DNA of 64,000 nucleotides, taken from Trametopsis cervina. Taxonomy: Eukaryota > Basidiomycota > Agaricomycetes > Polyporales > Irpicaceae. Positions 6,805 to 26,861 of the stretch are shown here, piece after piece. The stretch covers positions 110,976-174,975 of the forward strand of contig MU278382.1 in NCBI GenBank assembly GCA_022385755.1, written 5' to 3'. Each line of letters begins with the position of its first letter. The first letter of the stretch is position 1. The notes under the pieces are model-generated. The model was given only the letters and a program-made list of their open reading frames with translations, ran no database searches and was not told the DNA's origin. The position numbers were made by a program, and so were the translations under genes.

Positions 6805-6805
6805 T

Positions 6806-6903
6806 TCCGATAGCATGTCTATCGGGTTTTTGAGCGTAGTGAACAAAGCCGTGCCTGGAAAATTTAAGCTACATGCCTTTTATGGTAGTCCATCGGGTTT
6901 TCT
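6806..6903. repeat. Left terminus: hairpin, inverted repeat and subterminal repeat
   Basis: CCGATAG (6807-6813) and CTATCGG (6819-6825) form a perfect 7-bp stem with loop CATGT. The first arm is also the partner of the inverted repeat near the right end. The motif ATCGGGTTTT occurs at about 6821 and again at about 6893, followed in both cases by a GCTCAGCG/GAGCG-like string. These are candidate Rep-binding sites by analogy with rolling-circle elements; that role is inferred. Confidence 0.6.
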
Positions 6904-7191
6904 ATCGCTCAGCGCTTGCTGTTCAGGGTCTGCACCGTGCGTCGTGAAAGCCACAGTCTCTCATCCTGACTTGTCGCAGCCACCCCTGCATTCGCTTTCT
7001 CGCACTCATTACCACACCAACTGTTAGACTATCTGCATTGTGCATCGAACAGGTGGCCCTCATACTCCGGTCATCGTTGGTACGCTGCCGAGCAATGGTC
7101 CTGAGTATCGTCCTGGATGCCTGTTCGTGTTGTCTCTCTTCATTGTCTGCCAACGTAAAATTGACACATTTTATAAGGCTATGGCGGCATT

Positions 7192-10100
7192 TTGGTAATC
7201 GTCCCATTGTTATGCATTGCATATGTCTACTATTGTGGCCGCACGCAGGGGGCGTGCGGTACTTCTGGTTTCATCTCCATGTCTGGAGGTGGAAGACGTA
7301 CCCGTCATGTTGCGACCACTACGTTGGCCCCTTATCGTGTCTTCTCCGGTGCTTTGCCTCTTTGTACTGAAGTTGAGTTTGTTGGGCAGCACACAGATGC
7401 CGAAATATACCGCTTAGCGTCCAGTGACATAGTTGCCGTCGAGGTTCCTTTAGCTACACTTGCATTGTTTGTGCCATTCAGAGATCTCGTGTTATTGGCT
7501 CGCCGCCATCGTATTCTCATATCCAGTACATCTCGTACAATTGCAGGCCTCGCCCGCACTCTGACTGCACATAAGTGTGACCTTTCATGTTCAGCGGTCT
7601 ACTCAGTGTTCCGTCGCCGCGGCCACTCTTCTGAGCCACCCTCGCCTCCCATCCCTCAGCTCCATTCAGCTGAACTTGGCGCGTCGCCTCGTCCTGCACC
7701 ACCACAATTTCCTCCGAGGAAACTGACACCGCGTGAGATTGCAGACAAGATAGCGAACTGGACCGAAGCTCTTTCCCCCGCAAAAATTGCAGAACGCCCA
7801 TGCGCCGTATGTGGGCAGCTCACACTTCTTGTGAAACAGAGTTCCGTTCCTATGTCAGAGCTCGACCTTACTCACCTTGCCGTCCCTGGGGTAACTAGGG
7901 CTGAACGTAGTCGAGCCTCAGATCCTATTGTTGAGTTATCTGGACCAATCCTTCACCAAGGAGGCATCACGCAACAGGATTCACAGTTGATCGTTCATAT
8001 GTGCCCGCCCTGTTTGGTGGCTGTCCGCAGGCATCACATAGGGAGACATAGCTTGGCGAATGGTATATGGTTAGGCGACGTGCCCGATGCGCTCATGTCG
8101 CTGAACTTCGTTGAGCAGCTACTCGTCGCTAAATACAGACATAACATATGTGTAGTCCGGGTTGACAAAGGGCAACGTAAGATGTCGGCCAATGCCATTG
8201 TATTCCCTCAACCCGTCGTGGCCGTTTCTCGTATTCTGCCGCCTGCTAGAGATGAGATGGATTTATGTCTTGCCATCCTCTTCACCGGCTCAGCTGTACC
8301 CACTCCGAAGGATTACACACGTACTCCACTACTGGTCCGCCATAACAAGGTTGTCGCCGCTTTACAATGGCTGAAATTGAATCACATCGATTATGGCGAT
8401 GTTGAGCTATCTTATGAAAACATGGCCACTTATCCTGTGGATGAACCGCCTGTGGCTGTTTTGCATCGCCCGACAGATGGGCGTCTAGGAGGAGAAATGC
8501 TCGCAGTGTACGAATCCAGTGATGACCGTGGAGTAGAAACGGGCCCTTGCCCTTTTGCCGTTCATGGGATTACAGGCACTGATTTCGCACAGATGTCTTA
8601 TCAAGCTAAGGTTGCAGCTGCAATAAAGTATTTTGCTTCAGGTGGCGCTGCGCTGGCCGTCAGTCATGGTAGTCGTCCATCGAACACATATGAGGACCTG
8701 AGACTTTTCCCGGGTATGTTTCCCTGGCTTTTCCCATACGGATATGGGGCGATGGGAAATAAGTTGATGCAAACAAAATTACCGCACGCTGCCCACGTCA
8801 GACAACTGCTGCTATACGCCGACTGCAGGTTTGCTGTTGACCGGTATTTTCCATTCATTGTGTTTAACCAGCAACAGATTCGCGGGAGCTCATATGGGGG
8901 TTACGCGGTAACCAACAAATCGAATGTTGATTCTGTCGTACAGAAAATTATGGATATTGATCCCGCGGCTTTGGATGCAATCATTTCCAGAGGGGAGGCA
9001 GGCGAGTTCGTTCGACCTGAAACCGACGCAGAACGTGCTTGCTTTGAATTGATACAGTTGATCGACCAGGTGAACCATTACGTCCCTGGCTCTGCCACGA
9101 ACCGTAAATTTCAGCGCAACGAAATAAAGTCGATGATCATGCAGAAGGGCGTACCATTCTGGTTCATAACGTTTTCTCCGACCGATTTTAAGCACCCTAT
9201 ATGTTTTTACTATTGCGGCATGAAGATAGACCTCTTTTCTTGTGACCAGAAACTACCTGACTATCAAGAACGAATGTGTGCAATTGCTCAGAATCCCGTC
9301 GCTTGTGCACGCTTTTTTGATCGCATTGTACTCACGTTTTTGAGTGAGATCCTGTGCTACGGAAAGGCAGAGGATGGCTTGTTTGGCCTTACTGAGTCTT
9401 ACTATGGCACCGTGGAGTCACAGGGCCGTCTTACGCTACATTTACACATCCTTATTTGGGTCAAGAACTCACTATCTCCGCAGGAGGTGCGCGATAAAAT
9501 CCGCGAAAACAAAACGTTCGCAGAAGAATATACTGCATGGTTAGAATCGTGTCATCAGGGTGGATACAGTACAGGCACTGACGTGGAGATTGCAACGGTT
9601 GTTGAGCAACTGTCTCAAAACCCAACTGAGTCCATACCCGTGCCTCCGCCATCTGATATGACCGATGCTGATGCGGAGTCGTGGTTAAATGAGGTTCGTC
9701 GGATTACAGACTGCATTGTTCACCTTTCCAATAGACACAATAGTCGTCACGATAAAGGATGCTTGAGAGGTAACGCTCCTAATACGTACTGCCGCGCGAA
9801 CTTTCCTCGGATGCTATATCCACAGACTCTCGTGGACTGGGTGACAGGAAGTGTACAGTTGAGACATACTGACCAGTGGATGAACACATTTAATATTGTT
9901 TTGACTTACCTAATTCGTTGTAATACGGACGTTACATGCTTAATGTCGAGCACCCAGGTTCGCGCCATAATAGCTTATGTCACGGACTATGTCACCAAAA
10001 ACTCCTTGAAGACGCACGCCGTTTTCGAGACCATTAAAGCAGTGCTTGACAAGAAGACTGATATTGTCAATGAACATGCGACAGTAAAAGATGCTGCGCG

Positions 10101-13100
10101 CACTGTACTGGTCAAAATAGTGAACGGGTTGACTGCGAAATCTGAATCTCCCGGTCCAATGACTTGCGCCCTTCTCCTTGGGCAACCAGATCATTACACC
10201 CCCGAGTCATTTCGTGTATGTTACTGGTGGCCTTTCGCGAAATATGTAGAGAACACCGCGTTTTGTATCGCTACAGACAGCGCCAGTCAGAACACTCAAG
10301 AAAAGGTGATTCTGAGTTGTAAAGATGGTCGTATAATTGCCCGTAACCAAATACAAGATTATATCCTTCGTCCCACTGAACATCAGTGTCTTTCGCTGTA
10401 TGACTTCCTGTGTACCACCGTTGTTAAAAAAATTACCAAACAACATCGTCCACATGCTCCACACTCCGGTGAATGCAGCGATGTCGATATGGATGCAAGC
10501 ACTGATGGGGAGGAGGATTCGGGTGATGAACCCAGTGACAATACAAACGAGGATGACGTTGCAGAACAGAATATTCGTCCTGGTACGCAGTACTATAAAT
10601 TTCAGCCCGAGCATCCGTTATCTACTACTCATGGAGTGTTTTTTGTCAAAAACCCTGTTCTTTTGAACTTTGTTGGTGGGACTTTACCACGACGCGATCG
10701 TGGTGACCGCGAAGAATATTGTCGTGTCATGTTGACACTTTTCGCTCCAGTCGGATGGCGGTCTGGGTTGGATCTCAAGCCTGATGGTCGTACTTGGTGC
10801 GAAGTATTCGATGGTACTGTGTTCGATGCGACCCACCTGTATATTATGAATAACATGAACCTCCTTTATGAGTGTTATGACGCAAAACATGACTGGGCAG
10901 CACAGCGACGAGAGCATGGAAACAATGGCAGTGCCACGTTGAATGGCATTGGCAACTTCTCTGAGGCAGTGCTACAGGACGTTGAAAGATTTGGAAACGA
11001 GTGCGATATTGGCGATCAGCTTCTTGATGTTGGTATCTTAGCCAGTGCATGCGAGACACCTGCTGACTTTGGCCGCAAAACAGTCAGGCACATGCGTGAG
11101 TTTCACGAGATGACTCTACTAATGAAGAGCGCAGGCGCACCCATATCGTCTGTAGGATCAGAAACTGTAGATCCGCATCATGCTCTAAGTTCGTTCGAAG
11201 CAGAGGGCCTCTCCATCTCAACAACCAACACCTCTGTTTCTGGCACAGATGATACCATGTTCCCATCAAGAAATAGTCTTGAGTGGGATTCTATTCTGTC
11301 CAGTGTTCGCGATGCGGTTTTGTCTGAACGTGCACGTCCTTCCATCCCCGCACTGGAAGACAACTTGCAAGATCAACGCATGGCACCTCAGAGGGTGGGC
11401 AATGTTCCACTGTGTTGTGACTCTACGCATGGCAGTGTCTATGTTGTTACTACAAAATGCATGCAATGGGTAGACAATGCGACGACCGTGGCATCCTCGA
11501 TAGATCCACACATTGCTCTTATAAAGCAAGTTGTGGACCAGTTTACGCTAAATTCAGCACAGCAACGTGCATTCAAAATTGCGGCGACGTATTTAGCTCA
11601 CAACGATACAACGGCACTTCGAATGTATTTGGCAGGGATGGCGGGTACAGGGAAGAGTCAGGTTCTCCATGCCATAGGTACCTTCTTAGATTTACGAGGG
11701 GAATCTTGTAGATTCGTTGTAATGGCGCCCACTGGGAGCGCAGCAGCTTTAATCGGTGGCTCGACATATCATTCGATGTTGGGGTTCGGACAATCGTCTG
11801 GTAAGCAGTCTATGGCAAATTTAGAGAAAGTAAGAGGTCGCCTAACAGGCGTAGACGTCATTTTCCTCGATGAAATTTCTATGTTTAGTCTGCACGACTT
11901 GTATCGAATCAGCGCACAACTATGTAAGGCTCTAAACGTGCCCGAGAAGTCATTTGGGGGTTTGGGTGTCATTGTAGCGGGTGATTTTGCCCAGTTGCCC
12001 CCAGTAGGAAAGGGAAGTGTACCATTGTACTCAGACACTGTAGGTTCATTCAGTGACGGAAGCACGTTGCGTTCCCAGCAGAATGCTATGGGAAAGGTTC
12101 TGTGGCATTCATTCACTACTGTCGTGATCTTACGTGAAAACATGCGAATACGTAGCATGTGTGGGGAAGATATAGCTTTCAGGAGGGTGTTAGAAAATAT
12201 GCGCTATAAGTCCTGCACGAAAGAGGACATCGCCGTTTTGCGATCCCGTACTGCGAATGCAGACGATCCCGAGCTATCCTTGGCCAATTCTCGCTTTGCG
12301 TCTGTGTCCATGATCACTGCTCACAATGCACAACGTGATGCCATCAACTTGCATTCACTACACCGCTTTGCACGGGAACGTGGTGTATCTTTGTCCTATT
12401 TTCATTCTATCGATAAGTGGGCAGGCCGTGATGCAAACAGCGATGCATCAGTCAAAGGCGCAAACCAAAAAATGCAGCATCTTCTGTGGAACTTGCCTCC
12501 TGCGTTGACTGAAAATCGTGCGGGAATTTTACCGCTTTGCATGGGCATGCCTGTACTACTGAAGGCCAATAAGGTCACCGAGATTTCTGCTACTAACGGT
12601 GCAGAAGCGACTGTTGTGGGATGGCAAGCACATTGGGACACAGAACACCTGTATCAACATTTAGACGTTGTTTTTGTCCATTTGACTGCTCCACCCCAGC
12701 CATGCAAAGTTCCTGGTCTTCCGCGAAATGTTATACCAATTACAACGCATACCGAACGAATCAATTGTACGTTGCCGTCAGATTCGTCTGTCAGGGTCTC
12801 ACGCACGCAAGTTCAACTCTTACCAAATTTTGGAATGACTGACTATGCATCGCAAGGTCGTACACGACACGAAAATGTAGTGCATTTAGAGCATTGCAGA
12901 GGTGTATTGAGTGTATACACATGTTTGTCTCGAAGCTCCAGTCTGCAAGGAACGCTGATTGTTGGACGATTAGATGCTTCTAAAATAACGGGAGGTCTAT
13001 CAGGCGCATTGCGAAATGAATTTTACGAACTTGAATTACTGGATGACATAACTACCAAACGTTGGTGTGAAGCTCTACCTCAGGCACTCGATGTCTCCAC

Positions 13101-14259
13101 CCGATCTGTACTGTTGCCTGATTTCCTCAAAACACAAGAATCAGGGTACAGACCACCATATCTGCATCACACCCTCCAGATCCGTGCTCGCGAAAGGCTG
13201 CACAATAAAAGCAACACGGGTAAGGTTCCATGGCAGGTTCTGGATCACGTTAGAACAAGCAGTGTATCAAAAGCTCCCGACGTGGGCTTGGATGTGAACG
13301 GTGTTACAAAGCGTTCCAGATCCAAGCGTATGATCAGTAAAATGAATCCGGCGGACAGCATTATGGAAGACTTATACGCGTCCGGTAATGCGAGCGAGCC
13401 TATTCCATTAAAAGCTTTGCGATGGGACGCGGTAAATTGGAGTTGTGCGTATGATGCATTCCTCAATCTTATGTGGAATCTGTGGGTGCAGCGCGGTCAA
13501 CAGTGGTTTGAACAGGTTTTAGTACACAGTATAGAAATGCATAATCTTGCCGGACTGTTTGCTCAAGTCGATCTTGGTATATACCCTCTAGAAACTGTAC
13601 GGAGCACAGTGAGGGAGCGTTTGACTTTGAGCGACCCTCAAATGTTCCCTAACGTTGGGCATGTCTCTATTGCTGTTGACAATGTTTTCTCAGCTTTCTT
13701 ACCGTCCTCGTTTCCGTCTCTCTTCTTAACTCGCGCGTTTCTGAACTGCATGAATTGTGGTATCACCTCTGCTGCTGTTCACAACGTCGCCTGTCCTGTC
13801 ATATGGGAAAGTCAGGCCATCGAAGACTCTGCATCTCGTCAAGCTAGCCCATTAGGTATGAGTGGCATATTATCAGATTTATTACAATACGCGTTTTCCA
13901 TTCGCTGCACGGCTTGCCGACACCCAGTAGCTTCGCATGTGACGTTCTCCGATGTACCCCCACTGTTTATTGTGAATCTGAATAGAAGAACTACTAATCA
14001 CGTACCCTTCAATATTGAACGGTCACTCGTCATACCTACTACAGGCCATACCCAGAGAGTACTGTCTCTGTTTGGTATCGTATATTGGGGAGCAAATCAC
14101 TTTACCACGTGGGTCATCGATGTTAATGGCGATGTCTGGTACAATGACAGTGCCATCTCATCTATGGGTAGCCAATATAAACGCATAGGCTCGGTTGAAA
14201 CAGTGAGACTTGACCAGTGCGAGGGGCGTATGCCTCGCATTATAATGTATCGGGCATAG
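7192..14259 (+). CDS. Helitron Rep-helicase with C-terminal USP-like protease domain
   Basis: Rolling-circle transposase of the element: Rep nicks and joins single strands, the PIF1-type helicase unwinds DNA. The frame is one intact exon of 2355 codons; the start may be Met30 (7279, MSGGGRRTRH) rather than 7192. In order: a region like DUF6570 with CxxC pairs at 204/207 and 271/274; the Helitron N-terminal region from about residue 500; the HUH motif HLH at 750-752; the catalytic tyrosine pair Y929 and Y933 in AYVTDYVTK; a PIF1 helicase with Walker A GMAGTGKS (K1488), Walker B FLDE (D1560, E1561) and GDFAQLPP (about 1597-1604). The last 300 residues resemble a ubiquitin-specific protease: Cys2085 in NWSCAYDA, CxxC pairs 2186/2189 and 2239/2242, His2303 in GANHF, and WYND (Asp2319). 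No stop or frameshift interrupts it, so it could be active. Family assignment is strong; the protease call is moderate. Confidence 0.93.
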   Translation: MVIVPLLCIAYVYYCGRTQGACGTSGFISMSGGGRRTRHVATTTLAPYRVFSGALPLCTEVEFVGQHTDAEIYRLASSDIVAVEVPLATLALFVPFRDLVLLARRHRILISSTSRTIAGLARTLTAHKCDLSCSAVYSVFRRRGHSSEPPSPPIPQLHSAELGASPRPAPPQFPPRKLTPREIADKIANWTEALSPAKIAERPCAVCGQLTLLVKQSSVPMSELDLTHLAVPGVTRAERSRASDPIVELSGPILHQGGITQQDSQLIVHMCPPCLVAVRRHHIGRHSLANGIWLGDVPDALMSLNFVEQLLVAKYRHNICVVRVDKGQRKMSANAIVFPQPVVAVSRILPPARDEMDLCLAILFTGSAVPTPKDYTRTPLLVRHNKVVAALQWLKLNHIDYGDVELSYENMATYPVDEPPVAVLHRPTDGRLGGEMLAVYESSDDRGVETGPCPFAVHGITGTDFAQMSYQAKVAAAIKYFASGGAALAVSHGSRPSNTYEDLRLFPGMFPWLFPYGYGAMGNKLMQTKLPHAAHVRQLLLYADCRFAVDRYFPFIVFNQQQIRGSSYGGYAVTNKSNVDSVVQKIMDIDPAALDAIISRGEAGEFVRPETDAERACFELIQLIDQVNHYVPGSATNRKFQRNEIKSMIMQKGVPFWFITFSPTDFKHPICFYYCGMKIDLFSCDQKLPDYQERMCAIAQNPVACARFFDRIVLTFLSEILCYGKAEDGLFGLTESYYGTVESQGRLTLHLHILIWVKNSLSPQEVRDKIRENKTFAEEYTAWLESCHQGGYSTGTDVEIATVVEQLSQNPTESIPVPPPSDMTDADAESWLNEVRRITDCIVHLSNRHNSRHDKGCLRGNAPNTYCRANFPRMLYPQTLVDWVTGSVQLRHTDQWMNTFNIVLTYLIRCNTDVTCLMSSTQVRAIIAYVTDYVTKNSLKTHAVFETIKAVLDKKTDIVNEHATVKDAARTVLVKIVNGLTAKSESPGPMTCALLLGQPDHYTPESFRVCYWWPFAKYVENTAFCIATDSASQNTQEKVILSCKDGRIIARNQIQDYILRPTEHQCLSLYDFLCTTVVKKITKQHRPHAPHSGECSDVDMDASTDGEEDSGDEPSDNTNEDDVAEQNIRPGTQYYKFQPEHPLSTTHGVFFVKNPVLLNFVGGTLPRRDRGDREEYCRVMLTLFAPVGWRSGLDLKPDGRTWCEVFDGTVFDATHLYIMNNMNLLYECYDAKHDWAAQRREHGNNGSATLNGIGNFSEAVLQDVERFGNECDIGDQLLDVGILASACETPADFGRKTVRHMREFHEMTLLMKSAGAPISSVGSETVDPHHALSSFEAEGLSISTTNTSVSGTDDTMFPSRNSLEWDSILSSVRDAVLSERARPSIPALEDNLQDQRMAPQRVGNVPLCCDSTHGSVYVVTTKCMQWVDNATTVASSIDPHIALIKQVVDQFTLNSAQQRAFKIAATYLAHNDTTALRMYLAGMAGTGKSQVLHAIGTFLDLRGESCRFVVMAPTGSAAALIGGSTYHSMLGFGQSSGKQSMANLEKVRGRLTGVDVIFLDEISMFSLHDLYRISAQLCKALNVPEKSFGGLGVIVAGDFAQLPPVGKGSVPLYSDTVGSFSDGSTLRSQQNAMGKVLWHSFTTVVILRENMRIRSMCGEDIAFRRVLENMRYKSCTKEDIAVLRSRTANADDPELSLANSRFASVSMITAHNAQRDAINLHSLHRFARERGVSLSYFHSIDKWAGRDANSDASVKGANQKMQHLLWNLPPALTENRAGILPLCMGMPVLLKANKVTEISATNGAEATVVGWQAHWDTEHLYQHLDVVFVHLTAPPQPCKVPGLPRNVIPITTHTERINCTLPSDSSVRVSRTQVQLLPNFGMTDYASQGRTRHENVVHLEHCRGVLSVYTCLSRSSSLQGTLIVGRLDASKITGGLSGALRNEFYELELLDDITTKRWCEALPQALDVSTRSVLLPDFLKTQESGYRPPYLHHTLQIRARERLHNKSNTGKVPWQVLDHVRTSSVSKAPDVGLDVNGVTKRSRSKRMISKMNPADSIMEDLYASGNASEPIPLKALRWDAVNWSCAYDAFLNLMWNLWVQRGQQWFEQVLVHSIEMHNLAGLFAQVDLGIYPLETVRSTVRERLTLSDPQMFPNVGHVSIAVDNVFSAFLPSSFPSLFLTRAFLNCMNCGITSAAVHNVACPVIWESQAIEDSASRQASPLGMSGILSDLLQYAFSIRCTACRHPVASHVTFSDVPPLFIVNLNRRTTNHVPFNIERSLVIPTTGHTQRVLSLFGIVYWGANHFTTWVIDVNGDVWYNDSAISSMGSQYKRIGSVETVRLDQCEGRMPRIIMYRA

Positions 14260-14436
14260 GGCCTCTGTTACAACACAGTTGTCACCTTCTGCCCTTGCTG
14301 GTCTCTAAATCAACCATCCAGCGCACAACTTTCAGAGGGCTCGTATTATCGTTCATGAAGATCGACACTGATCAAGACCCTAGCCTAATGAGAATCTCGC
14401 ATTCTACATGTTGACAATTGTCATACCCAGAACATA

Positions 14437-15710
14437 TTATGCATCAGTAAGTATTTCATCGTCGTCAATAACCGCTTCCCCGCCAACAACAAAACCTCCA
14501 TCCGCAACTTCCATTGCTACTTCTACTTCGTTATGCACCGTCACCGTAGGCACCAAGCCCAACGCCTAACAAAGAGCCATAGTTAACACAAGGAGCGACA
14601 AAAAACAGTAGTGACTTACCGCCATTTCTGCGGCAGCACGCAAACGGAACACTTGCTGGGGCTGTAGCTGAATCGAGATGTCTTTACGGCCAGACTTGTG
14701 CGTAATGACTATTTTGAGCGTTGCAGCGACGTCCACAAAATCGCCTCGTCGGATCGCAAGATACCTTGCAGGCCTGAGCACACCGTCGTTGTCTTGTACA
14801 CCACAGCGAATCTGGTGTGTCACACGCCACATGGACTCCACGCGAGCTAGACGTCCATCTTGGTCGTCCATGTGGTGAATCGCGACAGCGGGAGGTCCAA
14901 CTTGACCAGGAGTTACCTTCAAGTGTGATAGTCAACAATGAAAAGCTCTGTTGAGAAGCCCTGCAAATGAACTCACCTTGACAAACACTTCTCTCGAGAA
15001 TACTAACGTATTTGCAGCCACATGCCCCGCTTCCCTAGTAGGACGACAGTGTAATGATGCATAAACATATTCACGTAGGCCCCCAAGCTGAATTTGCATT
15101 GCGTCGAACGCGTCATTGCCCGCAATTCCTTTCAGTACAAGCCGTTGCCCAGCTTTGGCACAATTCAGGACGTTCCTACGTCGGATTATAGCTTCATGGT
15201 TTCCTCGAAGCAAAGCATTGACGTACCCATTCCAATTCCCAGCCGGACTCAACGCCGCATCTTGAACTACTCCTTGGAACCTGAACACAGGTTCCAACAC
15301 GGCGTTTCCAGCTCGTGGAGATACCTCAGGAGTGAACGCGAGCTTGTGTTCAGTGCGTCCCATTCCACGAGAGGGCTGACGGAAGGTGTAGTAGGTCTTG
15401 ACAAGATCATCGAATGTCTCGGGGACCAACTGGTGCCTGTGCAAATCCAACACATCTCGCGTGTCTGTGCCTGCGCTACCAATTTGGTGGGGCCATAAAC
15501 TACGGACGAGCACACCGTTCGCTGTAGAAGCTTCAGCGTTAGGCAACTGTTGTCAGGGTGTGCACTTACTGCAAAAAAACGACATGGGTACAGAGGATAG
15601 TTTCTCACGAGGAGGACGACATCCGTCCTTGGTCTATATGCAGGTTCGCCGCGGCCAACAGGGACTATGTTTAATAATATTTCAATTTTATCCTGCTCCA
15701 CGATCGACAT
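14437..15710 (-). CDS. Helentron accessory protein 1, possibly OB-fold/ssDNA-binding
   Basis: I splice four exons: 15609-15710, 14977-15546, 14620-14916 and 14437-14565. They sum to 1098 nt with phases that agree (365 residues, start MSIVEQDKIE, end DEILTDA). I do not recognise the family by name. The C-terminal half shows alternating hydrophobic strands such as RRGDFVDVAATLKIVITHK and QLQPQQVFRLRAA, which would suit a small beta-barrel. It is divergent from 15850-17277, 139 bp apart, and the two proteins share a similar ending (MW/IW followed by a GDFVDV / NDIVML strand), suggesting an old duplication. Plant Helitrons often encode RPA-like proteins, so an ssDNA-binding helper of the Rep-helicase is a reasonable guess, not shown. 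The gene lies convergent to the transposase gene, 178 bp from its stop. Confidence 0.6.
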
Positions 15711-15849: not shown

Positions 15850-17277
15850 ATGAACTCGCGTTCCAAAGCCAAAGCTAGCAAACGAGTTTCTTCTCCCTCT
15901 CTGACAGATACTGCGGGTGATGCTAAACGGCCTCGTCTGGAGGCTGGTGCTGTTCGTGAGATCGAAAGGTAAGCAGTGCATGCCATAGATGAACAAGTGC
16001 TGACTCTTTTTTAGTGCTGTTACGTGGGTTCCCGACAAATTCTTTATCTCGGGAACGTCTGGTGGGGCTGAAGGAAACAGTCAGCCATCAGGTAATTCGC
16101 CCGCAGATGACGGGTCGGGGGACTCCACGTTATCAAACAGTTCTTCCAACCACCCTTCGCAGTTACACGGGAGTTTGGGAGATGCCGGATCGTCACCGCA
16201 ACAGTACGCATATTACGCAGCTCATACATTCGCCGACCTCATCCTTTCACAGAGCGCAAGTGGGTGACAGTGTTGTACCAGGCCGCACGGTATTTGGAGA
16301 TCTGCCTGACGGAAATCAGAGGTGTGTGTATAAATATTGAGGATGGCAGTTAGTTGACGCAGTATACAGTCAATCCACCTCGAAGGGCAAGCAAACCGGT
16401 GTGGTAGATGAACCCGGGGATATGAAGAACTCAGTCGACATTACCGAGTTTCATTTTCCGGCCAGGATTGCCGACAAGAACGTGCAGTACGTACTTTTGT
16501 TGTCTGCTCGCGAAAGTACCCCTGACGTCGTTGCAGACTGTTCACAGCTGCCGCATCCTCAGTCGACACAAGAAACCATGTGTATCCCATCAACGCTGTA
16601 CCTCGCTCGGTCACATGGGGCAAGAAGACTCCGGCACTCGCTAAGTTTCTTTGCGTTGCCGACAGCGTGATCACCGTCAAAATAGTAGGCACAGTCACAA
16701 GCGTTTACTTTTACGATCGTACAGGTTCCCCTGCGGAACGGGTCAGTATTGGTATTCGTCCTCTGAGACAATGTGACAGTATCGCCGCTCAGAAATATCT
16801 TGAGTCATGCTCCACCGGTAAACGTAAGCAGTGCCTTATTTGGTTTTCTCTGCGATCCTTGCTGACAACCATGCAGGTGCGAACGTTGACAATGACGAAT
16901 TCGTCCTGTACGCAAGCAAATATTGTACGAAGACTGTTCGTGGAGAGGTCAAACCGCAGGTAACTAACATGTCGATACCTGGTATGTGTGTTCCTGACTT
17001 AAACATGCAGATCTACCGGTTCGAGAACATATGGGATGGGACCCGTTGCGTCGACAGCATCACCACGCGCGTGAAGACTGGGGGCCCCGAAAGCATCACC
17101 GTCAATGACATCGTGATGCTAGAAGTTCGTCTGTTCCGATGGAAGAACACGTCTGCTGGACCCTCGTCTGGCTGGACATCTTTCACCGCGGGATTTCAGC
17201 TGGAGGGCGCAACTCTTATGGTTGAAGATGAAGATTCACAAGCGAGTGACAACGAGGGTATGGGAGCGGCATTCTAA
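15850..17277 (+). CDS. Helentron accessory protein 2, paralogue of accessory protein 1
   Basis: I splice six exons: 15850-15968, 16015-16259, 16363-16486, 16537-16823, 16877-16959 and 17011-17277, summing to 1125 nt (374 residues) with consistent phases. The second intron (16260-16362, 103 nt) is the least certain. The N-terminus is basic and Ser/Lys-rich (MNSRSKAKASKRVSS), like a nuclear localisation region, followed by a Gly/Ser/Asn-rich linker. The C-terminal half has strand-rich segments (SVITVKIVGTVTSVYFYD; ITVNDIVMLEVRLFRWK; FTAGFQLEGATLM) that parallel the end of accessory protein 1. The tail is acidic. Function is not known; an ssDNA-binding or replication-helper role is inferred from position beside the Rep-helicase and from the OB-like strand pattern. 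Confidence 0.6.
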
Positions 17278-18003
17278 CCATATGTGATTACGAGGCTCTG
17301 TCGAATACGTTAGCACTACTGTCTCGTAGATGGTCATGTAGTGTTGCCAATCACAATTGCGTCTCGCTGTTCCCGCCCTTTGTGCTCTACGACCATTAGG
17401 CTGTTAAAACGTAGCGGAGTTACCCCGGAGGCGACTGAGCGGTATGCATTGGTTTCATTGCACACACTCCTTCGAAGTCTCGTCGAAAATTGTTTTCCAT
17501 TACAGTTCGGAGATGTTGTGGGTCAAATGCAATTTTGCCCGGAGCGATCGTAACCGGATGTGCTACTTTTTCACCTTTGCGTTCGGCTGATCGAATATTA
17601 AAATCTCCCTGTGTTGTAGGAACTCAGCAGTCCGTGGCAGCATCTTATAGCATTCTACCTCTATATGATGGTTAACATGGTGTTCAACAGAACGTCGCGC
17701 ACTACCCGTGGCCGTGTACAAGGCATTGATGTGGTATAACCGTGGAGTCCGGTGATTGCTTGAGTCATTTCCAAGACCTCCCCGATCCTTGCAGTTTAAA
17801 GTTTGGGGCATGTATTCAGCAACCCGGCTTTGCTACTTAGCATCCGTCAAAGAATGGACGGGCCAAACTGATTCCTGTTGGATATATCAGCAGCACCAAA
17901 ATAGGTCTGCCGCTTTTATCGACGCTGGTAAATACTGAGGATTTCAGCAGTTAGGACGTGAGGATCGAGTCCGTTGTTAAGCATATCTTGCCCGTGAGTT
18001 CGT
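17278..18003. other. Intergenic, nothing recognised
   Basis: Frames of up to about 80 codons occur on both strands (17341-17553 plus; 17563-17811 minus) but show no motif and no neighbouring paralogue. It may contain promoter sequence of the following nucleotidyltransferase-like gene, whose true start is uncertain. Confidence 0.4.
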
Positions 18004-19258
18004 GTGAAGCTCGTGTGCAAAATGATCCCTAACGTCCAGGTGTTTCAGGTCTGGTTCCGTCATTCGATGCTGGTCGCACTGCTGGTGAACTACGGGCTGG
18101 CCCACTGTATCTTCTCATACTGTGGACCGGTGGCAATCTTCAAGGTTCGACGGACGAGTCGGATCCTCGCAGACGTGGTCGAGCAATACCTGAGATCCGC
18201 ATTCAATATCGAGCGGTCGCTCACGGCCTTTTTCGAAGATGTCCGAGGATTTCGACGTTTGCAAAGACGGGCGGGATTACTCATCTCCGGCTCATTCGCT
18301 CTACAGTTTTTTGGTCGAGTAAATTATCCCGAGGCCGATCTGGATTTGTTTCTGCCCATGCACGCACGGCAGGAGGTGGCCATGTGACTGCAGGAACAAG
18401 GATATGAGTTTCGACCGACTCGGACGCAGGCTCAGGACGCGCACACAGTCTTGCGTGCGGATGAGCATGGAGCTGTTAACGGGGACTACGGTTACCCAAC
18501 CAATGGAATCTTTGCCGTGCTCAGTTTCGAAAAAACCGTCAAGGCAGGTCAACAGCGCAACGTCGTGCAGTTGATCGTTGCATGGCGCGCTCCGATGGAA
18601 ATAATACTCGGTTTTCATTCTAGTGCGTGTGCATATACCTGGTAGCTTGCCTTACTGATGATTCTGCCTTAGCATGTGTCCTCAACGTGATTACAGCCGA
18701 CACAGCGTATGCAATGTATCCCTGGTCGACTTTTGAAGACATGAACAACCTTGTTCTCATCGATACTCCATCGCAAATAACTCCACTGGCAAAATATGCG
18801 CGACGAGGGTGGGCTTTAACCCGTGAACTGCATTTCCCGCAATTCGAACTGGATTTACCTTCGCGGTCGATGCAAGACTATCGTACGTGGAGGATAGGTC
18901 TTCATACCGGACCTTCATCAGTGCAATCTCACGACGTCCATCCCGCTGCGATCACTTCATGGAGATTAGAGCGCGATTTGTCACTACGCCCCCATGTCAG
19001 CTTTCACGTGGTGGCTGACCATGCCCGCTTATTTCCACTTGTCGTTTCTGATCATTCACTGGTCGACCTCTTGCGACGAATACTCAACTATCCCACTCCC
19101 TCGTCCTCAAATCGACTATACTTTTGGCCATCTCAACAAACGGAACAGTCAAGGTAAAGCAATCGCTTCCTCTCAGGTTTTAATTGACCATGCTTCACAG
19201 TACTACTCAGAACATTGTGAAACTCGTCAAAGCATGGCTGACAGACTGGTCAAGATAG
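18004..19258 (+). pseudogene. Nucleotidyltransferase-like gene with one in-frame stop
   Basis: Three exons, 18004-18622, 18673-19153 and 19201-19258, join in phase (386 codons) and end TDWSR. The protein shows the nucleotidyltransferase-fold signature: GS at residues 96-97 (LLISGSFALQFF) followed by DLD at 112-114 (EADLDLFLP). After the first intron comes FHSTCVLN...AYAMYPWSTFE, an ending I recognise from many Agaricomycete hypothetical proteins of this type. A TGA at 18385-18387 interrupts codon 128 (EVAM-stop-LQEQGYEF), while the frame on both sides stays clearly coding. A single base change, probably from Trp TGG, explains it. Otherwise it would be a recoded stop or a sequencing error. The start is not certain and may lie in an upstream exon. 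It is cargo within the Helentron. Confidence 0.72.
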
Positions 19259-19525
19259 AATGCGCGTTATGTACTAACTCGATGGTACGTGATAACCCCT
19301 TGCATGCCAACCTGTAACTAAACCTACTTCTACAGTCGTGCTTGGACCAGGCTTGTACGACGAGCTTGTGCGTATGAGTGCATAGATATTTATGTAGTAG
19401 CTTCATTCAACTTACATGATTGCGCGCAACACGGTTGAACGTATCGAGTAACATGCGTGAAAATTTCACGCGGTGTATTGTTATCGGCGCAGGAACTTGA
19501 GGCTGGTGGATGAGCTATGAACGTG

Positions 19526-19801
19526 TTAACAGATGAGTGAGTACAGATGTAACGATACGATAAAAACGCGCACTGCGAGCGACCTACCCGATTTCCGACA
19601 ATACTGCTCTATGTATTGCTCAACTTCGGTCGGTGTCACTTGACGTGTTGAGCCTTGATCAGCGTTATGAAGGGGGGATGGTAAATAGGTAGCGAATGCT
19701 ATGCAGGGTAATTGAGTACACAGAAACCGTCGTGTTGAATTGCCTACTAATAACACGAAACATTCTGGAATGCGAACAATGACTTGAGCGAGGTGCGCCA
19801 T
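19526..19801 (-). CDS. Small hypothetical protein, doubtful
   Basis: A 91-codon frame starting MAHLAQVIVR lies between the nucleotidyltransferase-like gene and the first F-box gene, on the opposite strand. It contains a hydrophilic segment TPTEVEQYIEQYCRKSGRS that looks protein-like, and a GGTAGG near its end could be a splice donor to a further exon. No family is recognised. The rest of 19259-19989 shows nothing. Confidence 0.22.
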   Translation of the reverse strand: MAHLAQVIVRIPECFVLLVGNSTRRFLCTQLPCIAFATYLPSPLHNADQGSTRQVTPTEVEQYIEQYCRKSGRSLAVRVFIVSLHLYSLIC

Positions 19802-19989
19802 ATTGTCTTGGCAAAGCGAAAGGCATTTGTAGGTGTAAGGACTTTCTTCCTCAGCGTATTCAGGCGAATGCACCCTTCCTTTTATAAGAGGCCAGATTTG
19901 GCATTGAAAAGACAGGTATGCCGTGGCGATCGTGCGGCAAGACGGCCGAATGAAAAAATGAAAAACCGACGTGAAACGATGAGGCCGGT

Positions 19990-21237
19990 ATGGAAGGGAT
20001 AAATACTCCCCACTGTAAATCACTCCCCAGCGACGACATGGAGCGATTATCCCCTCGGGCGTTGGCTAACATTGCCTCGATGATCTCATACAACGACCTT
20101 CTTACTTTACATGCTACATCGAGCTTTCTATGGAGGTCTTGCAGACCTCTCGTATTTGCCAAGCTTCGCTTACAAGGGAACACCGCAAAGCTGGAAGAGC
20201 TATGTGAATGGTTGGAGGAGAACCCGGGGGTTGCCCAAACAGTTATGCAGCTCCACATCTCTGGTCGTAAACGACGCCGTCCTTACCCACTGAACACTGC
20301 AAGCCCTTCACTTACTTCGGCAGAAGTTGCAAGCGTAGTGCGCCTACTACCTTGCCTCAACCGCTTAGTGCTATCCTGGCTGGTCGTACCGTCAACGAGC
20401 ACAGCATGGCCCATCGCACACGGTGTCACCCAGTTCTTCTTCCACCATGTCGACTTTCCAACCAACGTGCTCAACACATTACATAATTTCTGCGAGCTTA
20501 ACCTTTCAATTGTCACTTTGGATTGCGTTCGTTTACTGCTCGACAGCCCTGTCTATCACCAGCTATCATTCGCAACAAAAACCCTCCATGTCATTCTTTC
20601 TGCGCAGGGGGAAAATCTAGGCAACATCATTGCTGTTCGGGGCATAGAAACCCTGATATGCGAGAACATCACTCCTGGCAACGTTGACTGGTTCGCTCAC
20701 GTGGTAGCTGAAAATTGCGCCACTTTACGATGCCTGAAGTTGGTCGAGGCAAGCCACAAGTCAGGTATGTGCCAGGCGTGTTTAATGACCGTGACTAATC
20801 TTTCGCATGTAGCATTTACTGCAGTTTGGCCGAAGTTACCTTTCGCCAGTTGTCATGGGCTGCAAGTGATGACCATTGGCATGCCGCTGAACGTCTGGGA
20901 TGACCGAACGGACAGTCGATCAATCGCGGAGAGCTTGAGTGTCCTCATTGCAGGGCTGCCTTCGACGTTGTCATCTTTGTCAATTGAGTTGGATTGTCGT
21001 GGATGGTATGGCGTACCGTCATATGCAAGCATCATCGAGAAGATACCTTGGAAGGGGGTGTTGGAAGCAATCGCGGGCTTGCCAGGTTTGCGTGAACTGC
21101 AGTGGGTGATGATGATAAAACGCATGGAACCATTCCAGAGAAGTGATATAGCGGCCGTAGAATACATCTTAGGTATAGATCAAAGACAGGGCGATGAACG
21201 CACCTTAGCAGTTTCACTTGCTTACACAAGTGGCTGA
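19990..21237 (+). CDS. F-box-like protein with LRR-like region
   Basis: The frame encodes up to 415 residues. Near the start, LSPRALANIASMISYNDLLTLHATSSFLWRS follows the F-box pattern (hydrophobic-Pro motif, then Leu/Ser/Cys-rich helices), which in eukaryotes binds Skp1 and recruits targets to SCF ubiquitin ligases. The rest has irregular leucine-rich segments (LLPCLNRLVLSWL, FCELNLSIVTLDCVRLLL, LPSTLSSLSIEL), as in many Agaricomycete F-box proteins. A 48-nt in-frame intron with GTATGT donor, CTAAT branch site and TAG acceptor probably lies at 20765-20812, giving about 399 residues. The start may be 19990 or the second Met at 20038. It is carried inside the Helentron next to a second, related gene. 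Agaricomycete genomes hold hundreds of such genes, so capture from the host is plausible. Confidence 0.7.
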   Translation: MEGINTPHCKSLPSDDMERLSPRALANIASMISYNDLLTLHATSSFLWRSCRPLVFAKLRLQGNTAKLEELCEWLEENPGVAQTVMQLHISGRKRRRPYPLNTASPSLTSAEVASVVRLLPCLNRLVLSWLVVPSTSTAWPIAHGVTQFFFHHVDFPTNVLNTLHNFCELNLSIVTLDCVRLLLDSPVYHQLSFATKTLHVILSAQGENLGNIIAVRGIETLICENITPGNVDWFAHVVAENCATLRCLKLVEASHKSGMCQACLMTVTNLSHVAFTAVWPKLPFASCHGLQVMTIGMPLNVWDDRTDSRSIAESLSVLIAGLPSTLSSLSIELDCRGWYGVPSYASIIEKIPWKGVLEAIAGLPGLRELQWVMMIKRMEPFQRSDIAAVEYILGIDQRQGDERTLAVSLAYTSG

Positions 21238-21308
21238 CATGGCAGTTCTTTCTCGTACATCTATTATAGAATGCATGTTACACATTTTCAACGCCCTCAA
21301 ACACCATC

Positions 21309-22460
21309 ATGGCCACCATCTTCCTCATATGTCGCATTCTGTGCGATTACCTTGCACATGAGCTTGCTTTACTGAAGAGCTTATCAAGAACATGTTCACT
21401 ATTTGCGGACCTCGCTGCGCGTGTTTTATACAGGTCTTGTACACGTATCGTCACAGGAGATGGTTTCAACACCGTCCGAAGGATTCTCCTCACGCATCCA
21501 AGGCTTTCGAACGCCATAAGGCAGTTACAAGTCCAGGGAAATATTGGTGGTGAATGTGGAACGAGTCCTATAGTACGATGGAGAGATCTGGTGAGGTTGT
21601 TACAGGTAACCCCTGCGATGCAACACCTAAACATCAATGGCCATTACATCAAATCCTCGGGTCCCTTCCCTATGCATACCGCGTTTCCCATTTCGCTACA
21701 CATATCCAACTCAACGTTCGACCGACTCTCGCCTTCCCTTGGCATTTTGCTGCAGACCATTTCACTGGAGGAGCTATGCCTAACCAACGTCCGGTTACCT
21801 CCATCGACAAATTGGATCAGTGGATATCTAGGTGTACCAAACGTTGTGATGACTTGGATGCGCCCTTTACAACTGGACGAAGTGCAAGCGGTACCAATCT
21901 TCTCCTCGACAACCCAGTTAGCATCGTTCAACATGACAGACGTATGCTGGCTATGGTTAAGACAGACGATTCACATCAATTGTCTGACGCTACACACTCT
22001 GCGGATAGGACTCGCACATAATGTTCCTGGTACGTGCGTGTTTGTACTTTGATTACGTTACCTGAACCATGTGGCAGCCGTGATATCTCAGACATGGACA
22101 ACACTGGATTTACACAACTGTAGCAGTTTAACGACTGTACATGTACAGCTGCCTATGGACTTTTGGTTCGGACAGGACGACTACTATCGCAGACAGCGGG
22201 GGCTTATCAAATTTATCTCGCAACTGCCGGCATCAACTACACACTTCATTCTAGAGATGAGTTATTATGCTTGGGCAAAGTACGAGACACAGCCGCATAC
22301 CCCATTCTCTACAGGCATGCGTTGGAACGAATTAGACGATGCACTGAGCCACGTGCCAAATCTCGAATGCCTCACCATACAGTGGTTCGCTCAGGAGGAG
22401 ACAGCGGAACTGCTGCACGGCACTCTGCCAGATACTGTAGATGGGTGGACTCCAGGGTGA
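21309..22460 (+). CDS. Second F-box/LRR-like protein
   Basis: Exons 21309-22029 and 22078-22460 (48-nt intron, GTACGT...GCAG) join in phase to 367 residues. The N-terminus (ICRILCDYLAHELALLKSLSRTC, then ADLAARVLYRSCTRI) resembles a degenerate F-box followed by the usual ARVLY motif, and the remainder has LRR-like stretches (SLEELCLTNVRLPP, LTLHTLRIGL, PNLECLTIQW). It follows the first F-box gene by 71 bp in the same direction and may be a diverged tandem duplicate. The 22461-22737 gap to the next gene shows only a 70-codon minus-strand frame without features. Confidence 0.65.
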
Positions 22461-22737
22461 AAGGCATATGTACACAGTGGGTTACCACGCGTTACTGAGC
22501 GGACTACAATACGCTTTGCGTGGAGGTTAGCTGCGAGCGATGTCGAGCTTTGCTAGGGCGTAATGAAATATGTCGGTATCACTTGAGTGTCGCGATAGCT
22601 TGTTACCGGGAGTAACCTGACATACGTAGTGAGGACGTGATAATGTCCCCGTCCGGCGCCACACTGGAACACGCGTCTCAAAACACCGCGGGATCTGCTG
22701 AACTACTCCTTGCACATCATCGTCTTTGACTGTACCC

Positions 22738-24093
22738 ATGGATAACGATGCACGTTCCCATTACGACTCAGATGATGTCGCCGTCAAGCACTTAAACACA
22801 CTGCTGGAGACCGTGCGAGGTGAATCGACGTCTGAAAGTGAGGACAAGGGTTTTTTGGCAGAAGTGATGTCCGCTATGGTATGTGCAGTTACGTGTAATC
22901 GATCCAAATTTGTGTTACTAACTATGCGAAGGTAAAACTTGTGGCCCACGACGGTGCCCAGCAAGCGGTCTTAACGCGTAATAAGACCAGGGAAGTGCTG
23001 CGCGGTGTTGTAGTGAAATGGATGCATACAGCATGGCTGCATGAAACCCGGGAAGAATTTCACGCCAAACACGACTATGATCTTTTTGAAGATCTGGTGT
23101 TCGACCTGGACATGGTCGTCGACAAACTGTGGGCGCAGATGAAAGAGAAGCAGATTGACATCGATACCTTCGATCGTCAGCATGCGCGGGTTCAGAAGGT
23201 GTACGATGGTAAGGCTGTCTTTTGTCGTCCAGAACTTACATTCACGAGCCTGTAAAGCAATACCTCCTGAGAAGCGAGCGATCAAACCTACCATAGACAG
23301 CACTACGTCTCAGAAAGCAGCTGGGTCAGACAAAGGCCTGAAAGGACGTAAGGCGAACGTGCGTGGTGCAAAAGGTACAACTGCAGGAACAGTGCCTGCA
23401 CCTAACAAGACTTTCGACGTTGTTTATGAAAAGTATCCCAAGTATCTCAAAGATACATTTTCGAAAGCAGATTTACTGCGCACATTTCCGCATGAGAACA
23501 CCTGGCCAAAGCCACCATACGACAAACACCTGCGTTCTAAAGGACACAAGATGGTACGTAAGCTGACTGTTCGTTGCAGGTGTTTCGCACTGACAGTTCC
23601 TAAGTGTGACAGGTGCTCTATAAACACGAATGTTGAGCTATGTCTCTATTTCAAGGGTCGTCCCACCTGCGTGCAGTGTTACATCGACAACGCAGACTGC
23701 ATGACAACGCTCACTCATCTGCCCACAAGCGCGAGTGTCGAGGAAATCCGGCTCCCTCACGATGGTATGTGTACAATGTTATCGCATTGTTCTCGTAGAC
23801 CTGAAAAGACTACGCCAGATCACGACTTATTGACTCACGTGGGCAACGCTGGCAACGACAGGGTTGTCAAATATAACCGCACTCAGCAAAGTACAACACC
23901 TGCGATTACAGACAACCATGATTTACCTACATTGTCGCAACTACCACGGGCTGCTGGGGAGGACCTAGAAACACAAGATCTCGTCGATGCTGTGCAGCGC
24001 GAAAGGAGATCCCTACGTGCCCAATTGGCTGTGCAAACGTGGTTACTGGACGACCTGGAAGATAACGAAGAGGGTTCATCCGACGCTGCGTAA
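22738..24093 (+). CDS. Six-cysteine finger protein A (Helentron cargo family)
   Basis: Exons 22738-22878, 22932-23208, 23258-23553 and 23605-24093 join in phase (400 codons; a further in-frame 54-nt intron at 23765-23818 is likely, giving about 382). Exon 2 encodes a helical domain with WMHTAWLHETREEF. Exon 3 has a basic linker and a WPKPPYDKHLR motif. Exon 4 opens with a finger C-x2-C-x8-C-x8-C-x2-C-x6-C (residues 239-270), probably zinc-binding, and the protein ends in a coiled-coil-like helix (LVDAVQRERRSLRAQLAV). The paralogue at 24229-25595 has the same exon lengths, phases and cysteine spacing. Such Cys-rich proteins are common but unnamed in Agaricomycetes. A DNA-binding role is a guess. 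Confidence 0.75.
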
Positions 24094-24228
24094 CCTGCCA
24101 TGTCTAGCCCTGTCACCTAACGTACCTTTGTTACCCTACATATTAAGCATGCCGTATATACGCCTGATTAACCAATACATCGCATTATTCGGTCTACTGT
24201 AACTGCAATACATATAGCGAGTAAAAAT

Positions 24229-25595
24229 CTACTTGCGCTTGCGCATAGTGAGAGCCTTTGGTCCGTACTTGTTCAGCTTGCTTTCCAGGTCATCCAATGA
24301 CTTCAGTTGCCTCTGAAGCAAATGGATACGGGAGCGGATGGCAGCTTTCGTGTCTTCTACGGTGTGCGCAACGTTGACGGACTGACAGGGTGCAGTAAAA
24401 AACTCTTGCAAAGCATCTGATGCCTTTTGTTGAAGACGACCGTTTGAACCACCCGCACCACCGTCATGAGCTACTCCTAACACAGATGTGGCAGGAATAG
24501 TCATTTGCGAGGGCCCTTGGTGAGGCTCATGCGCTTTACGAAGCGCAAGCGTCTTCATGGCCTCCTCACCTCTCGAGGTTGCAATACGACCTGTAAAATA
24601 TCAGCGTCATCGAGCCGGGCAACAAGGAAACTCACGTCGTTTGGGCCGAGGTGCAGCCTCATCATAAGATGCAACGCTATTGACCATACACTGTTGTTGA
24701 TTGAGGGCACACCGAATGCACGCATTGTGCCCTGCACTGTAAAAGCAGGTCGACACTGTGGGGATTGCAATGCATTGAGAGCACTACATCCCAGTTGGTT
24801 AATAAACGAATGACCGCAAACAGAATCAACGTACCATATTCGTCTCAGCGGTGCGCAAAATCTGCACAAATGGAGCCTTGGGCCACATATTCACGTCAGA
24901 GAAAGCTTGGGTGAAGCTTTCCAGCGTGAATATGTTTCGGATGTAAGCGGGATACTCAGCGTATACCTGGGCTGGCAATGGGTGCACTTCACTCATTGTA
25001 ATGTCCGAGCTGGCATTCTCAGCAGGTAATTGCTGCTGGTGTGACAATGGAGGAAGTTCTACAGCTCAATGAGGGTAAGTAAAGGTTCTTCCATTGATAA
25101 CAGAGACGTACCTGCGTGCAACAACTTGATGCGAGCCTCCAGGTCAGTGAAAGTGTCTTGAGAGAGCTTCGCGGCCGCAAACAACTGCCGAGTCTTAACT
25201 AGTTCAGTCTCTACGTCAAACCGAAAGTCTGCGTATACGTCGTATTCAAACCGCTCGATAAGTTCGTCGCGCATGTCTTGCGCCCACGCTGTGTGGAACC
25301 ATTGGCGTAGCATAACTTGTAATGTTTGTAGAGCGGCCAATGCTGCAGTCTGCACAGTCTCGTTACCTGCGAACGTGTGCGCAGTGATCTGCCATTCGAA
25401 CAAACGAGTCAGTAGCGTTTAAGGGTAAACAATGCAAGTGCTCACCAGCGACGCCATTATCAATGTAGCAAACTCTTGGTCAGCCACCTCATTACAGATC
25501 CCCTGACGGGGACGGCTGGCGAACGTTTGCAGATCGTGAAGGGCTTCGAGTAGAGAAGGATCAAGTGCGTTTGGAACAGATGCAACGATTTCCAT
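24229..25595 (-). CDS. Six-cysteine finger protein B (Helentron cargo family)
   Basis: Exons 25446-25595, 25112-25388, 24835-25058, 24636-24783 and 24229-24590 join in phase to 386 residues. Exon 2 is 277 nt, exactly as in paralogue A, and encodes RQWFHTAWAQDMRDEL, matching WMHTAWLHETREEF of A. Exon 3 contains YPAYIRNIFTLESFTQAF and MWPKAPF, again matching A (YPKYLKDTFSKADLLRTF, TWPKPPY). Exon 4 carries the same finger spacing C-x2-C-x8-C-x8-C-x2-C-x6-C (residues 218-249). The C-terminus is a coiled-coil-like helix (LLQRQLKSLDDLESKLN) with a basic tail. It is convergent with A and divergent from C (173 bp between starts). The conserved architecture with diverged sequence argues that these are real, selected genes. 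Confidence 0.75.
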
Positions 25596-25768
25596 GATAG
25601 GTGGGACGGTAATGCGCTGAAGAGAAATGCGGAATAAGTGGCAGAGCGTCCGATTAAACAACGCGTTAATTGACCGTGAGATATTATTTCTCGCAATTAA
25701 ATTATGTAATTCACATAAGTACGCCGCCCGTCGAACTTCCGGCTGACCAGCACGGCTTCATCTTCAGC

Positions 25769-26776
25769 ATGGAGAAGAAAGAAAGTTCCCGTGAATACCT
25801 GGCGCGTCGAGCAAAAGACGAATTAGAAGAAGCTTGTGCGAGTGAGCATACCACGGAGACCACAGGGGAACGGTGCGCGCGGAACATCTTGAACTGTCTG
25901 GTACGATGGTTCTGGGTAGTTGACCGTCTACTTAACACCACTAACGACGGAGTAGGACCTTTATCTCACTTTACAAGGCAATGACACCAAGGACAACACC
26001 ACGCAAAGAGCTTTGAGCACGATTGGAGCTGTAACACGACGATGGCCTCAAAGCCAGTGGGCTTTAGAAGTACGTGAATTCGTTATGGGTAAATGGGCCT
26101 TCGACGTCCTAAACGGTATGCCTCTGTGCGCTACTACTGTAAACACGCTCACAGTAAGCCGACAGAGGATGCTAACGAGGGGGTGCCTGAAGGCTCGGAC
26201 GACGAAACGGACGATGTCACCGCGCATGCAATGGGGTCTAGGCAATTCACGGCACATGGTAAAGACGTGCAGGTCACTGCGAAAAGAAACAAAGGTACTG
26301 ATGATGATCGCTGGGGGTGCGCTGTCTAACGTTGATTGACTGCGAGTGTAGGTCAGAATGACAATGTGAACGACCGCCAGACGCGTGCATCGCGAAAGGC
26401 CAAGGAGGCAATCGGTGCTGGCAAGTCTAGCGACGCAAAAACCGCACTTGGCGGGGAAGGTACAACCACCCAGCCTACCGCGGGGCCATCCAAACCCAAC
26501 AGAGCCGCACCCGCAGCGGCCTACAGTGTGGAAGACCTTGTAGGTGGCATGCTGACAGATCCAATCGCGGTGCCTTTCCACAACGTTGAGGCAGCGATGG
26601 GGGGTGAGGAACTACCTTACACGCAAGCCCCACTGAATAGCGACTTGACACTGCGCTCTGTGAGAAAATTGTTGGCAGAGGTTGAGCATGACATTGCGGT
26701 GAAGCAATGGCAGGCGCATAGCATTCGGTCGTTGGAACGTGCTCTCATGCAGTTGAATACAAACACAACCCTATGA
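25769..26776 (+). CDS. Member C of the cargo family, lacking the cysteine finger
   Basis: Exons 25769-25900, 25992-26115, 26166-26294 and 26352-26776 join in phase to 269 residues. Exon 1 is 44 codons (47 and 50 in A and B), and exon 2 encodes RRWPQSQWALEVREFVMGKWAFDVL, which aligns with the WFHTAW helix of A and B. The later exons are low-complexity and acidic (EGSDDETDDVTAH), then end in a coiled-coil-like helix (SVRKLLAEVEHDIAVKQWQ). The finger exon is missing, so C is a shortened relative. The first intron (91 nt) has an uncertain acceptor. It ends only 24 bp before the right-end palindrome of the Helentron. Confidence 0.62.
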
Positions 26777-26800
26777 TATAGTACTTATTACAATGAATAC

Positions 26801-26861
26801 TGCGGAATATTCCGCATGCTATCGGACCGGGCGTGCTCCCGCAGCGCCGTTACCCCCCAAG
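26801..26861. repeat. Right terminus: palindrome, inverted repeat, GC-rich hairpin
   Basis: TGCGGAATATTCCGCA (26801-26816) is a perfect 16-bp palindrome overlapping the start of CATGCTATCGGA (26815-26826), the inverted copy of the left end. Outside it, CGGG and CCCG (26828-26842) with a 6-nt loop, or GGCG/CGCC with a longer loop, can form a hairpin just before the boundary. A hairpin acting as 3' terminator of rolling-circle transfer is known for Helitrons; here it is inferred. Confidence 0.6.

Follow-up and report, generated by a model that had tools for sequence, protein, structure and literature searches.

The DNA analysed here (the window) is a stretch of 64,000 nucleotides from the fungus Trametopsis cervina, C35:110976-174975 in the one assembly of this species that served as our genome sample (29.4 Mb, 59 contigs; designations such as C16 and C15 refer to its contigs). 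Within it we found a Rep-helicase gene (gene A) followed by eight further genes (B to I), the whole enclosed between two conserved termini and inserted into a repeat of which an uninterrupted relative lies in the same window (Table 1). This is a real, single, gene-rich element of the Helitron2 type; its present mobility and the functions of its cargo are predictions from its sequence.

Table 1. Position of the element, its termini and genes, and the related host unit in the window.
Feature	Position	Strand	Basis or remark
Whole element	6805..26861	+	20,057 bp, inserted 5' of T; empty site and ends common to other loci
5' terminus with hairpin CCGATAG-CATGT-CTATCGG (6807-6825)	6805..6826	+	seven exact genomic matches; DNA fold
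Gene A, Rep-helicase	7177..14259	+	one frame, 2360 codons; Pfam DUF6570, Helitron_like_N, PIF1
Gene B, possible single-stranded DNA-binding protein, start uncertain	14437..15633	-	conserved in five element copies
Gene C, protein of 376 aa, acidic tail ending in F	15850..17277	+	public model P0002 mapped exon-wise
Gene D, nucleotidyltransferase-like, TGA-interrupted	18022..19258	+	TGA 18385-18387
Gene E, possible F-box-like protein	19990..21237	+	open frame
Gene F, paralogue of E, 3' end uncertain	21309..22556	+	gene model and genome matches
Gene G, six-cysteine zinc-cluster-like protein	22738..24093	+	CX2CX8CX8CX2CX6C
Gene H, paralogue of G, identical six-cysteine motif	24229..25689	-	gene model, motif
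Gene I, shorter G/H relative without the cysteines	25769..26776	+	gene model, motif comparison
Conserved 3' terminus of 47 bp	26815..26861	+	common to nine loci
Paralogous host unit without insert	45557..55132	+	empty site 52447/52448

A preliminary description of this stretch had proposed that a repeat is cut at 6804/6805 and resumes at 26862, with a relative uncut at the same point. The alignment within the window bears this out: the flanks 6200-6804 and 26862-27700, once joined, align continuously to the 52-kb region, and the junction of GGTGTAG with TGAGTGTA shows neither gap nor mismatch against the empty site 52447/52448. Homology of the flanks extends further, from 1-6646 and 26862-29530 to about 45557-55132, in pieces of 75-89% identity.

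The matching inverted ends claimed earlier are also exact in their coordinates. The 12-mer TCCGATAGCATG has two exact occurrences in the window, at 6806 (+) and at 26815-26826 (-), which gives asymmetric terminal inverted repeats of 12 bp (6806-6817 and 26815-26826) with the inverted copy subterminal, 35 bp before the 3' end. Taken alone the 12-mer is weak evidence for the ends, because at least two matches, with one mismatch or none, were also found in 6 of 100 shuffled sequences. The ends are settled, to the base, by other loci. Using patterns derived from the element copies themselves, we found seven left ends in the genome with no mismatch and one with three (controls, 0 and 1), this last being the remnant of a nested target on C15, and nine right ends, eight with no mismatch and one with a single mismatch (controls, 0 and 0). 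The left end begins at one and the same base on C15, C32, C12, C23 and C16, and all nine right ends read CCCCAAG followed by T. The T at 6805 or 26862 could be either a 1-bp duplication or the start of the element itself, in which case the element begins with TT and inserts 5' of T; both reconstructed empty sites contain a single T. The 5' hairpin folds with a z score of -5.5, equalled in 1 of 200 shuffles, and the 3' terminus (z -1.5 for 61 nt, z -0.2 for 50 nt) forms no hairpin better than shuffles.

Both ends are present in two further large copies, of 19,925 bp on C16 and 18,482 bp on C15, and in three short units: 3,821 bp on C9, about 0.7 kb for a relative nested on C15, and 266 bp on C12. 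The large C15 copy (C15:56393-74874, 18.5 kb) is itself inserted in the 5' hairpin of the 0.7-kb relative (C15:55687-56409), between nucleotides 17 and 18 of its 5' end and again before a T. Other copies keep one end. The C32 copy has a left end followed by Rep, B, C and the contig end, and the left end on C23 has no right-hand partner within about 20 kb. Only a right end was found on C28, with the full cargo of eight genes, Rep from residue 596 onward and a separate piece of Rep (residues 520-599) some 6 kb upstream; on C41 (C41:143597), with D, E, G, H and I before the contig end; and on C27 (C27:358452-358545), where 94 bp reach the contig end. The right ends of C27 and C41 do not differ at any of 94 bases, though their flanks do, which hints at recent movement. 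The copies on C27, C41 and C32, together with a Rep piece on C24, are situated at contig ends. Between E and G, the C41 copy has about 2.4 kb in place of F, with no F homologue or recognised gene.

These loci bear on whether the structure could be a chance composite, in which unrelated Helitron ends happen to flank a cluster of host genes or a different mobile element. Single ends do exist, as C23 illustrates, but both ends enclose the same gene order in the window, on C16 and on C15, and the empty site is free of gaps; a composite is thereby largely refuted and hardly credible. The preliminary description would have been refuted if the two ends were never seen together flanking one set of genes. 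They are seen together around all eight genes on C16 and around B to F plus one more gene on C15, and these two copies, the empty site and the nested insertion on C15 uphold its view of a single mobile unit.

The Rep-helicase is intact, as had been stated, and forms one open frame. Its Pfam matches to Helitron_like_N (2.4e-26) and PIF1 (2.4e-20) place the element in the Helitron superfamily. The motifs LHLH and YVTDY, which we take to be the HUH motif and the two tyrosines of Rep, are retained in all five Rep copies, as are Walker A, DE and a tail with Cys, CxxC and NHFTT. Identity to the window copy is 57-68% among these Reps, and 39-48% in the main pieces of three distant Rep-helicases at C3:720593, C52:20332 and C31:238478. 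Those on C3 and C52 have no cargo among the genome matches of the cargo genes; about 19 kb from the one on C31 lies a single relative of gene D. A role of the Rep tail as a ubiquitin protease is speculation: the window copy matches UCH only at E 0.078, below cut-off, and three other copies match no family. The hallmark of Starships is a tyrosine-recombinase captain with DUF3435, and this domain is absent from the Pfam matches of Rep (E ≤0.001) and of the eight cargo models (E ≤1).

The preliminary description had called the element a Helentron. No endonuclease is among the five Pfam families matched by the whole Rep frame (E ≤0.001), and none appeared when the tails of four copies were scanned at E ≤1. 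Because no endonuclease was detected in Rep, Helitron2-like describes the element better than Helentron in the strict sense. Helitron2 elements are described as having a single Rep-helicase open reading frame (ORF) without endonuclease (PMC4067079) and as inserting between TTTT and T or C (PMC5148889); here and below, what we attribute to published work refers to the available parts of each source. In T. cervina eight further genes accompany the Rep-helicase, and the 5' flanks vary among copies, only the 3' flank being T in nine of nine. Helitron2 is further marked by a hairpin at either terminus, and the strict-sense Helentron by insertion in a TT dinucleotide; the folds of the two termini and the single T of the reconstructed empty sites are given above. 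The 5'-TC, the 3'-CTRR and the insertion between A and T of Helitron1 (PMC5148889, PMC4067079) are not found here, the 3' end being CCAAG and the base 5' of the shared T being G in the window.

The gene order and strand B(-), C, D, E, F, G(+), H(-), I(+) recurs across copies. All eight genes are present in the window, on C16 and on C28, and subsets are found in three more copies: those of C32 and C41 given above, and on C15 B to F with one G/H/I-type gene, which groups with I at 93% in the tree. The earlier count of eight further genes is thus backed by C16, C28 and the partial copies. Local identities of the cargo between copies are 25-72%, and exon lengths are held in common, for example 287 nt in gene C in four of four models. 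Nei-Gojobori counts over the pairs examined, most of them saturated at synonymous sites, gave ratios of nonsynonymous to synonymous differences (pN/pS) of 0.24-0.56 for the cargo and 0.22-0.29 for Rep, values biased downward, as only stretches with at least 30% local identity were retained. Between the window and C16, the corresponding substitution ratios (dN/dS) are 0.18 for B, 0.12 for C, 0.17 for D, 0.37 for E, 0.16 for F, 0.18 for G, 0.14 for H and 0.17 for I; the window model of D, which we distrust, is part of these selection estimates. In these comparisons, all nine genes bear signatures of purifying selection.

Searches of the T. cervina genome, whose match counts are lower bounds, located B, C, F and H on element copies alone: B and C at five loci each, every one with Rep; F in four elements, besides weak E-type matches; and H in 21 match rows, all within element copies. 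The distribution of gene D is wider, comprising the elements, a copy on C20 and weaker relatives on C51, C19, C6 and C31. In a tree of D with 19 hand-picked outside proteins, from which these weaker relatives were left out, a split with 100% support sets off the six T. cervina sequences, namely those of five elements and of C20. The C20 copy (C20:330464-331548) was rejected as a host donor, since it falls inside an element clade (88% support) that leaves the C15 copy outside. Neither ends nor other cargo were found within about 9 kb on either side of it. This position in the tree, with no ends or cargo nearby, makes it likelier to be a stranded element gene. Because order and strand recur, purifying-selection signatures are present and B, C, F and H are confined to elements, the cargo appears to be non-random captures, which supports a conserved complement and not passenger DNA of one copy. 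In our view the element is probably a giant Helitron2-type rolling-circle transposon that maintains a set of eight genes in addition to its Rep-helicase.

In the unit on C9 (C9:132394-136214; 3.8 kb), a left and a right end bracket a tyrosinase-like gene (Pfam PF00264, PF18132). The nearest relatives of this gene are three adjacent genes at C12:463476-472067, with 45-86% identity piecewise; the C9 left end has only about 21 bp in common with the other left ends. The unit is likely a capture of a host tyrosinase gene, and since it has the ends of the element and a gene related to the C12 host cluster, complete-gene capture can happen. An ancestral Helitron2 could likewise have taken up the eight genes from its host and carried them along as passengers, with whatever selection there is acting through functions useful to the host. 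The many fungal relatives of gene D (152 matches) would suit such an origin, as does the C9 unit, but in this genome B, C, F and H lie nowhere except on elements, and the gene order is preserved through divergence in which synonymous sites are saturated. We regard a passenger origin as unlikely.

The cargo genes were modelled with our own splice program; public models of the window copy exist for C (376 aa) and D (289 aa). Seven complete frames among the eight had been claimed, which fits: D carries the in-frame TGA, with no stop at this point in the frames of C16 and C15, whereas the other seven are complete by prediction, because every model from the program runs from start to stop. Gene B, in a weak structural model, best matches T7 gp2.5, and a single-stranded DNA-binding fold of this type (OB) is a tentative assignment. 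An AlphaFold model of gene C was useless (predicted local distance difference test, pLDDT, 29). Profile comparison of B with C showed no relation, PHROGs gave no match and sequence searches of the PDB nothing convincing. Neither B nor C has a relative in the viral contigs searched, or a match outside T. cervina in a protein-database search that depends on shared 5-residue words (all five matches of C and all four of B lie within the species). A phage protein as the best structural match of B, and the lack of recognised cellular relatives of B and C, might point to a virus or plasmid that once fused with a Helitron, contributed replication proteins of its own and survives as the cargo. However, the viral contigs and PHROGs yielded nothing, the Pfam scan of the eight cargo models contains no viral family and the models have introns, all of which makes such a relic very improbable.

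Gene D presumably has a nucleotidyltransferase-like fold, as we judge from its GS...DLDLF motif. Its relatives in the protein database number 152 proteins, some of them named F-box, the best outside T. cervina being from Amylocystis (40%). No F-box above the Pfam cut-off was found in D, E or F; the C16 copy of E matches PF12937 (F-box) below cut-off (E 0.034), and D and F lack any F-box match (E ≤1). E and F are paralogous to each other, and G, H and I form a second set of paralogues. The motif CX2CX8CX8CX2CX6C is present in all six G and H models (window, C16, C28) and missing from the C15 G/H/I-type gene and from three of three I models.

Rep and cargo may differ in their histories. In separate trees of B to F, the window pairs with C16 at 98-100%. 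In approximately unbiased (AU) tests, the two alternative topologies were both rejected for each of C, D, E and F, whereas for B one was rejected and the other retained at p 0.06. With Rep no alternative was rejected, so its topology does not contradict the pairing of window and C16. At four-fold sites these two copies mismatch at about 511 of 743 positions in Rep (0.69) and 451 of 869 in cargo (0.52), a contrast with a chi-square p of about 8e-12 as computed from rounded bins; between the window and C15 the value is 0.69 for both. By this lower divergence, the cargo of the window and C16 would share a later ancestor than their Reps. This suggests that modules have been exchanged among copies; gene conversion or different substitution rates may be alternatives.

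Nicking by Rep, strand displacement, a circular intermediate and insertion beside T belong to published Helitron biology (PMC6431247, PMC5148889). In the T. cervina element, Rep would nick at the 5' hairpin end, the helicase would peel off a strand of about 20 kb, replication would stop at the 47-bp 3' end, and the product would insert 5' of a T via a circular intermediate. The joined ends of a circle or tandem intermediate would then read CCCAAG next to TTCCGATAG. The cargo most likely serves the element itself. More speculatively, B (perhaps with C) would coat the long single strand, G and H would bind DNA as regulators, and D, E and F would act on the host as ubiquitin-linked factors. We tentatively put forward, as a possibility, a self-contained 20-kb Helitron that is a rolling-circle counterpart of giant cargo elements, with one or more single-stranded DNA-binding proteins of its own, regulators that bind DNA and factors directed at the host (perhaps F-box proteins and a Rep tail resembling a ubiquitin protease) to deal with a long strand and with host defence, whose Rep and cargo modules reassort and whose ends can take up a complete host enzyme gene, as with the tyrosinase of C9.

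The surroundings of the element in the window include repeated host units of several kb, among them 45557-55132, and genes with DUF6535 at 506-2389 (-) and 62256-63872 (-). The G+C content is 0.49 in 6805-26861 and 0.54 in the remaining window.

A syntenic set of eight genes, kept as copies diverge, would mean that a rolling-circle transposon is able to grow into a multigene element, and a single-stranded DNA-binding protein of its own is a testable idea for how it handles a single strand of 20 kb. In the literature Helitrons move fragments of genes, the acquisition of full-length genes is called "exceptionally rare", and fungal elements reach up to 14 kb (PMC6431247). We found no comparable multigene Helitron in the literature searched, a search that lay outside most subscription papers and Repbase. 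Helitron2/FoHeli of Fusarium oxysporum (PMC5148889) is alike in that its terminal inverted repeats are asymmetric, with a hairpin at the 5' end and an inverted repeat some 20-50 bp short of the 3' end, its Rep-helicase has no endonuclease and its 5' T is ambiguous; it differs in its size of about 5-11 kb, against 20 kb with eight further genes in T. cervina, and in its terminal sequences. The nearest precedent found is proto-Helentron-Pi of Phytophthora infestans (about 14 kb; PMC4067079), which likewise encodes further proteins and a Rep-helicase without endonuclease and has a border taken from an empty site. However, it has three further ORFs (one with a SET domain), ends in 5'TT and 3'CTAG and inserts between A and T, whereas the T. 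cervina element has eight other genes and asymmetric inverted repeats. In the HELPO1 helitrons of Pleurotus ostreatus, genes vary by subfamily, and no conserved eight-gene complement is described in the available part of that source (PMC4289320). KDZ, EnSpm and Starships (PMC6431247, PMC12477816, PMC10799480) are similar in being large elements with accessory genes, but they depend on other transposases, whereas the T. cervina element uses a rolling-circle Rep-helicase.
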